Below, in pieces: positions 35,680 to 35,755 of a DNA stretch of 37,265 nt. Below the pieces are notes generated by a model, which was not told where the DNA came from, did not search any database, and was given only the letters and a program-made list of their open reading frames with translations. Where the stretch lies: the NCBI GenBank assembly GCA_016183005.1, contig JACPFN010000010.1, positions 1-37,265 of the forward strand. The letters are read 5' to 3'. How positions within the stretch are numbered: the first letter of the stretch is position 1; each line of letters starts with the position of its first letter. The stretch comes from Candidatus Babelota bacterium (GTDB taxonomy: Bacteria; Babelota; Babeliae; Babelales; Chromulinivoraceae). Both the position numbers and the translations under genes were made by a program.

Positions 35680-35755
35680 GCGCCTGTAGCTCAATGGATA
35701 GAGTACCGGATTTCGATTCCGTTGGTTGTAGGTTCGAGTCCTACCAGGCGCACCA
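35680..35755 (+). tRNA. tRNA-Arg(UCG)
   Basis: 76 nt with encoded CCA. Acceptor GCGCCTG/CAGGCGC, T-arm GTAGG-TTCGAGT-CCTAC, anticodon TCG in loop TTTCGAT. Pair 27-43 is C-T, a mismatch at the base of the anticodon stem. Its last 15 nt are overlapped antisense by the recombinase gene. Confidence 0.95.

Follow-up and report, generated by a model that had tools for sequence, protein, structure and literature searches.

Our analysis indicates, with considerable confidence, that the two serine recombinase genes in the stretch of DNA examined here (the window, 37,265 nucleotides long and the whole of contig 16 in a genome of 904,859 bp and 17 contigs) derive from large serine recombinase (LSR) elements specialised on the 3′ ends of tRNA genes, with integrases that would read the T-loop of the target and attP lying inside the integrase gene (int). 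Both window copies are non-functional remnants. A wider reading, in which a multi-phylum clade reads the T-loop and could target almost any tRNA, while integration strips the enzyme of a functional tail that is a degron in one phage lineage, is put forward only tentatively.

Two recombinase remnants at tRNA genes

The features of the window that bear on this are as follows.

10745..10820, minus strand: second full tRNA-Pro(tgg), distal boundary of an 8-kb region (ARAGORN)
17641..18395, minus strand: IS4/IS5-type transposase pair beside the relic (Pfam DDE_Tnp_1, DUF4096)
18474..18782, plus strand: C-terminal relic of a related recombinase, entering tRNA-Pro (similarity and shared TGG frame)
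18783..18858, minus strand: tRNA-Pro(tgg), the target of the relic (ARAGORN)
35680..35755, plus strand: tRNA-Arg(tcg), integration target (ARAGORN)
At 35680..35755, plus strand: attL, the tRNA-Arg(tcg) 3′ end joined with the recombinase 3′ end
35732..35738, minus strand: CTCGAAC, the antisense T-loop, proposed zinc-domain motif of attB, +18 from the core
35741..37166, minus strand: large serine recombinase gene of clade A without its N-terminus (Pfam, tree)
35746..35755, minus strand: att core, consisting of the CCA complement, discriminator base and acceptor-stem 3′ strand
37167..37265, minus strand: one end of an insertion element present in several copies, which cuts the recombinase short ahead of the catalytic serine

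The open reading frame at 35741-37177(-) has the Resolvase, Recombinase and Zn_ribbon_recom domains in that order (Pfam) and is 50-67% identical to intact relatives of its clade. Its protein ends in ...SSKTQEWCAW* and, as an earlier sequence-only reading had claimed, the last five codons (W-C-A-W-stop, 35755-35741) are the antisense 3′ end of tRNA-Arg(tcg). At about 37167 the gene meets an 88-bp repeat that opens with TCATTAAGCAC and is identical at four contig ends with four different flanks (C7, C9, C10 and C16 of G000, where the assembly breaks), which indicates an insertion element that removes the first ~15 codons of the recombinase; the catalytic serine of the RVSS motif is lost with them. 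The insertion element at 37167-37265 also contains the palindrome TCAGCCGTTGACGGCTGA. The other end of the tRNA-Arg element falls outside the contig and is not in view. At the same protease-tRNA-Arg locus, G028 is without a recombinase and G025 has a related one. The start of the contig (1-648) encodes a collagen-like protein with MTGITG repeats.

The relic at tRNA-Pro comprises ~100 C-terminal residues, matches residues 373-464 of the 35741 recombinase (E 6.9e-6) and by eye is most like clade C. The same reading was right that both genes converge on tRNA 3′ ends, those of tRNA-Arg at 35680-35755(+) and tRNA-Pro at 18783-18858(-). Its description of the fragment as ending in tRNA-Pro holds for the TGG codon, the CCA complement, which is in the same frame as in the 35741 recombinase, and fails for the end itself: the frame has no stop at the tRNA end and continues across the entire tRNA-Pro to 18863. 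This tRNA has tRNA-His and uvrA as neighbours, as in all relatives, and the remainder of the relic recombinase was probably removed by the IS4/IS5-type transposase insertion. A direct repeat of 85 bp, 99% identical between 10745-10829 and 18783-18867, carries a full tRNA-Pro(tgg) in each copy, and the 8-kb region between them holds SPFH, NfeD and peptidase genes. The tRNA-Pro(tgg) is also doubled in G028 and G029, and is single in other family members.

The recombinase family and its targets

The family consists of large serine recombinases of A118/Bxb1 architecture: its profile matches the A118 integrase (E 8.5e-15), and the predicted fold of a viral relative matches LSR-DNA complexes in Foldseek (E 7e-17). 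Within the phylum, by which we mean Dependentiae (relatives are recorded as Candidatus Babeliales/Dependentiae), homologues were found in 37 of the 101 genomes searched. We counted places that hold the recombinase C-terminus, the two window copies included (n=67), and scored a convergent tRNA when no more than 120 bp separated it from the matched end. A convergent tRNA 3′ end was present at 56 of the 67 places and at 42 of 47 near-full-length genes, and the TGG codon complementing CCA was in frame at 54 of these 56 places. The targets are tRNA-Arg (tcg, tct, cct), Asp, Glu (ttc, ctc), Gln, Asn, Met and Pro. The tryptophan of the TGG codon is invariant in 24/24 aligned proteins, as is S11, the catalytic serine of the RVS motif, in 24 intact relatives. 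Chance is excluded: the Dependentiae loci contain 676 open reading frames of 150 aa or more, and the 42 of them that converge on and end in a tRNA 3′ end are recombinases without exception, as against 0 of the remaining 634. Nearly all complete serine recombinases of Dependentiae fall in this tRNA-targeting family (Pfam search), and none of the literature searched names both Dependentiae and a serine recombinase.

In a tree of 43 proteins there are three clades, on which the tRNA isotype changes 16 times, as compared with a mean of 25.2 after shuffling (0 of 200 shuffles as low). There have nonetheless been several switches of isotype, with no change of position or frame. The expectation that the isoacceptor follows the recombinase clade is thus borne out only loosely: isotypes are clustered yet repeatedly switched.

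Outside Dependentiae, a scan of GTDB contigs gave 359 relatives; we retained the best 80, yielding 72 non-Dependentiae loci. In 58 of these the gene end meets a convergent tRNA or tmRNA; the frame is the usual one in 48 and a different one in 10, so that it is not universal. The hosts include Alphaproteobacteria, Legionella, Coxiellaceae, Geobacter, Zixibacteria, Melainabacteria, Omnitrophota, Acidobacteria, Planctomycetes and others, with the caution that in some cases the label comes from a metagenome bin and may be wrong; the targets are many tRNA isotypes and tmRNA. By comparison, only 2 of 30 control serine recombinases from Clostridia lie near a tRNA or tmRNA, and both are in a separate lineage. 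In a tree that includes ~30 other serine recombinases (built by a quick method), the tRNA trait is limited to this clade and that one Clostridia pair (L298 and L309), which end in tmRNA and tRNA-Gln, respectively, and perhaps represent an independent origin of the habit. The tRNA enrichment anticipated downstream of homologues is therefore found (56/67 and 58/72 versus 2/30), and with it the proposal of a serine-recombinase family specialised on tRNA 3′ ends is sustained, both in Dependentiae and elsewhere. Judged from sequence, this family is large and widespread, with members in many phyla. Both the choice of target and the fixed frame within Dependentiae can be read from the aligned loci.

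No convergent tRNA was scored by our threshold at 11 of the 67 Dependentiae places and 14 of the 72 loci elsewhere. Several of these are tandem junctions or cut ends; others remain unexplained. The one divergent copy (G067:C98) was scored as lacking a tRNA because its match ends early, and it is labelled "no" in the wider tree too; its stop (+198) nonetheless lies within a tRNA-Asp that spans +159 to +233 and converges on it, with a different frame.

In two Dependentiae elements, proteins of replication type (DUF3987 with Toprim, AAA_25) occur beside a mixed cargo (ankyrin, HINT, GNAT, hydrolase), a content suggestive of integrative plasmids or phage satellites. In G030, the same degraded recombinase with the same stops stands at tRNA-Arg(tct) on two contigs (L080 on C15, L081 on C7), reflecting either a recent duplication or an assembly effect.

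Attachment sites and exchange of the integrase C-terminus

In relatives, identity between integrase-side and far-end junctions extends over 6-10 bp, comprising the CCA complement, the discriminator and the acceptor stem, and it is on this basis that the core at 35746..35755 was placed; the crossover is mapped only within these 6-10 bp. Recombinases with no tRNA after them often have the same 6-10 bp core, followed by a P arm. The attachment site lies across the 3′ end of the integrase gene, and we propose that at attB the recombinase domain would contact the acceptor stem and CCA region while the zinc-ribbon domain would read the conserved T-loop (antisense TTCGAAC). Crossover in the first 6-9 bp would leave a complete tRNA beside int, and the far end of the integrated element would receive the short core and the attP arm. 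A zinc ribbon that reads the conserved T-loop would need only small changes to move to another isoacceptor. The full tRNA at both ends of the tRNA-Pro locus in the window is not predicted by this model, which allows only a short core at the far end, and counts against it. Inverted repeats in the integrase-side half site are weak by eye.

The sequence-only reading would have been undermined had tRNA adjacency vanished in relatives without any second att copy; second copies are in fact present, and an empty site was found in Mesorhizobium. In G058:C7, three integrases stand in tandem ahead of tRNA-Asn, as expected if each new element enters between the tRNA and the previous element. Mesorhizobium G101 has two tandem elements of 26.4 and 56.6 kb, both starting with TGGCTGGGGTTCTTGGAAGCTTTTCGAACTTT. 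At the end of the outer one its integrase abuts the tRNA; at that of the inner one, an integrase-like 3′ end continues into the following element's P arm. Mesorhizobium G103 is without these elements, and both of its flanks match, breaking at the TGG of tRNA-Gln: 470000-478043 of G103 aligns to 44973-50942 of G101 and 479252-482000 to 135034-137750, with ~1.2 kb beside the left junction that could not be aligned. The DNA search between the two genomes was noisy because the left flank holds a dispersed repeat, and direct comparison of the stretches settled the match. In the aligned genomes, the empty site and the tandem elements of Mesorhizobium confirm that insertion takes place at the tRNA 3′ end. 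A candidate for a clean empty site at tRNA-Asp in the genus of the window was rejected: synteny does break at the 3′ end of the tRNA, but the opposite flanks differ between the genomes compared.

The suggestion that the att site is also the 3′ end of the recombinase gene proved correct in that attP spans this end, and requires the refinement that the gene therefore ends differently in the free and the integrated form. Where the element is free or in tandem, the integrase frame runs through the core into the P arm; with attP inside int, integration swaps the native C-terminal tail (~27-30 residues) for antisense tRNA codons. In Dependentiae clade A the tails have 26-28 residues, most with an FAIKQ motif, and a tail is predicted to form two short helices. 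Beyond the att motif, synonymous differences exceed nonsynonymous ones in every comparison (for example, pS 0.75 and pN 0.06, or pS 0.57 and pN 0.13), weakly in some (pS 0.20 vs pN 0.14 for L204/L208). This pattern points to purifying selection on the tail, with the caution that the estimates rest on few sites because the tails are short.

Whether the exchange has a regulatory meaning can only be inferred. All 17 free-form integrases of gut phages (17 mutually related viral contigs) end in -[AVC]A or -AV, as compared with 11 of 554 other reading frames on those contigs and 1 of 66 integrated relatives, and their integrated sisters lose this end. These ends resemble ssrA degrons, although degradation itself is inferred only. 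Such ends were not seen in Dependentiae, Mesorhizobium or other lineages; since they are confined to the gut-phage subclade, we abandoned a family-wide degron role for the tail. It remains quite possible that the swap is a by-product without regulatory meaning, the tail serving the free form and its loss being tolerated. This possibility, which concerns function only and is compatible with our preferred explanation, is supported by the free variation of integrated tails in length and sequence and by the tails of Dependentiae and Mesorhizobium, which are not degron-like. The uniform ends of the 17 gut-phage integrases speak against it, as does the finding that a similar swap in phage Mx8 lowers integrase activity (PMC4701971).

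T-loop motif and relation to known integrases

The strongest evidence for recognition of the T-loop is the spacing of its motif, an inference from sequence that no biochemical data support as yet. The antisense T-loop TTCGAAC starts at +18 from the TGG in 104 of 113 attB sites. In attP sites with a clear motif (at most one mismatch), it starts at +23 in 17 of 24 and at +20 in 7 of 24, the latter being phages whose TGG anchor sits differently; 14 of 38 attP sites, notably most of clade A, have no clear motif (2-3 mismatches). Between free and integrated sister pairs, the shift is exactly 5 bp in 5/5. The zinc-domain motif of LSRs is known to lie 5 bp further out in attP than in attB, and 16-24 from the centre in attP (PMC3783163). 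The published positions would put the crossover near +7/+8, in the acceptor stem, and at the tRNA-Arg of the window, with the centre taken from this motif spacing, near 35748-35749. The 5-bp shift is visible in the sites themselves, whereas both the contact of the zinc domain with the T-loop and the exact crossover base are inferred. The enzymes would then probably pick their targets by reading a sequence that nearly all tRNAs share.

An alternate explanation is that tRNA ends are targeted as safe, conserved sites without any reading of the T-loop, the attP arm being descended from captured tRNA DNA. In its favour, the tRNA is matched by the core and by parts of the P arm, and element-borne tRNA sequence is common in islands of tyrosine integrases. 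A captured copy, however, would hold the motif at +18 and not at +23, where attP has it and where the zinc-domain shift would place it, and the stretch between attP core and motif is not tRNA-like. We regard this explanation as unlikely.

It is very improbable that the overlap is an annotation effect, the real gene stopping upstream and its run-on into the tRNA being meaningless: the codons after the tryptophan in the integrated form are indeed unconstrained antisense tRNA and vary in number, but protein similarity reaches the W codon, invariant in 24/24, and the free-form frame extends into a tail under purifying selection. That other integrases, such as tyrosine integrases, for which tRNA 3′ ends are the classic target (PMC4383910), inserted the elements and the serine recombinase is a mere passenger beside the tRNA is hardly credible, since the recombinase itself forms the junction in 114 loci, identity does not exceed 6-10 bp, one and the same int-P-arm junction recurs in tandem arrays, and the motif spacing is that of serine integrases.

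With T-loop reading and an attP inside int as the preferred explanation, the family can be placed among known systems. It resembles the LSRs A118/LI, Bxb1, phiC31 and TP901-1 in domain order, predicted fold, catalytic motif and the 5-bp attB/attP motif shift. These enzymes use other sites; the present family is directed at the 3′ ends of tRNA and tmRNA genes, has its attP within int and would use the T-loop as its zinc-domain motif. The exchange of an integrase C-terminus is already known and has precedents. The rumA-specific serine integrases of streptococcal ICEs likewise have the att site within the integrase gene, and integration replaces the C-terminus (PMC4701971); their target is a protein gene, rumA, with reciprocal 3′-end exchange, instead of a tRNA or tmRNA. 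In phage Mx8 (Magrini 1999, as cited in PMC4701971), attP is also within int and the C-terminus is replaced on integration, but the enzyme is a tyrosine recombinase that loses 112 residues and gains 13. In mycobacteriophages with integration-dependent immunity, integration removes the degron of the repressor (PMC9262239). The likeness lies in an attP inside a gene at a tRNA target and perhaps, for the gut-phage forms here, in the removal of an ssrA-like tag, recognised by sequence alone; there, however, attP is in the repressor gene and the integrase is a tyrosine enzyme, whereas here attP is in the integrase gene. As in the tRNA islands of Islander (PMC4383910), insertion is at the tRNA 3′ end and preserves the tRNA, but those islands depend on an unrelated tyrosine enzyme, while here the junction is formed by a serine recombinase and the core spans no more than 6-10 bp.

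Targeting of tRNA genes by serine integrases has been described as absent or rare; Ghinet 2011 (PMC3218068) called such targeting rare, citing phiRSM1 and reporting Mycobacterium AICEs. Serine-recombinase elements at tRNA genes are phiRSM (PMC4471427), the Mycobacterium AICEs in tRNA-Leu (PMC3218068) and Paracoccus phage Pami6 (PMC6536676). The phiRSM Int differs in belonging to the resolvase/invertase subfamily and in having attP between genes (PMC4471427), and the AICEs and Pami6 are isolated cases whose kinship to our clade is not established. What appears to be new is how large and widespread this tRNA-dedicated serine clade is, how the T-loop motif is spaced, and that both are combined with the tail swap, with priority uncertain, as later island databases were not covered.

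A clade found nearly always at tRNA genes would add many precisely mappable islands, and could supply serine integrases with natural sites in many bacteria and no need for engineered landing pads. Reading of the T-loop would explain how integrases move between isoacceptors and offers a testable rule for predicting attB, and the tail swap provides a comparison of free and integrated enzyme forms that is visible in sequence.

Two minor observations concern recombinases elsewhere. In Geobacter, three serine recombinases lie within 9 kb (G112:C1:707297-716113; L282, L286, L288), one ending in tRNA-Asn, one in a P-arm-like tail and one in KKAA. The Recombinase domain (PF07508) has short matches, covering its first half, at G007:C28:5542-6417 and G000:C2:4816-4956, and those in G007 are tandemly repeated within one open frame.
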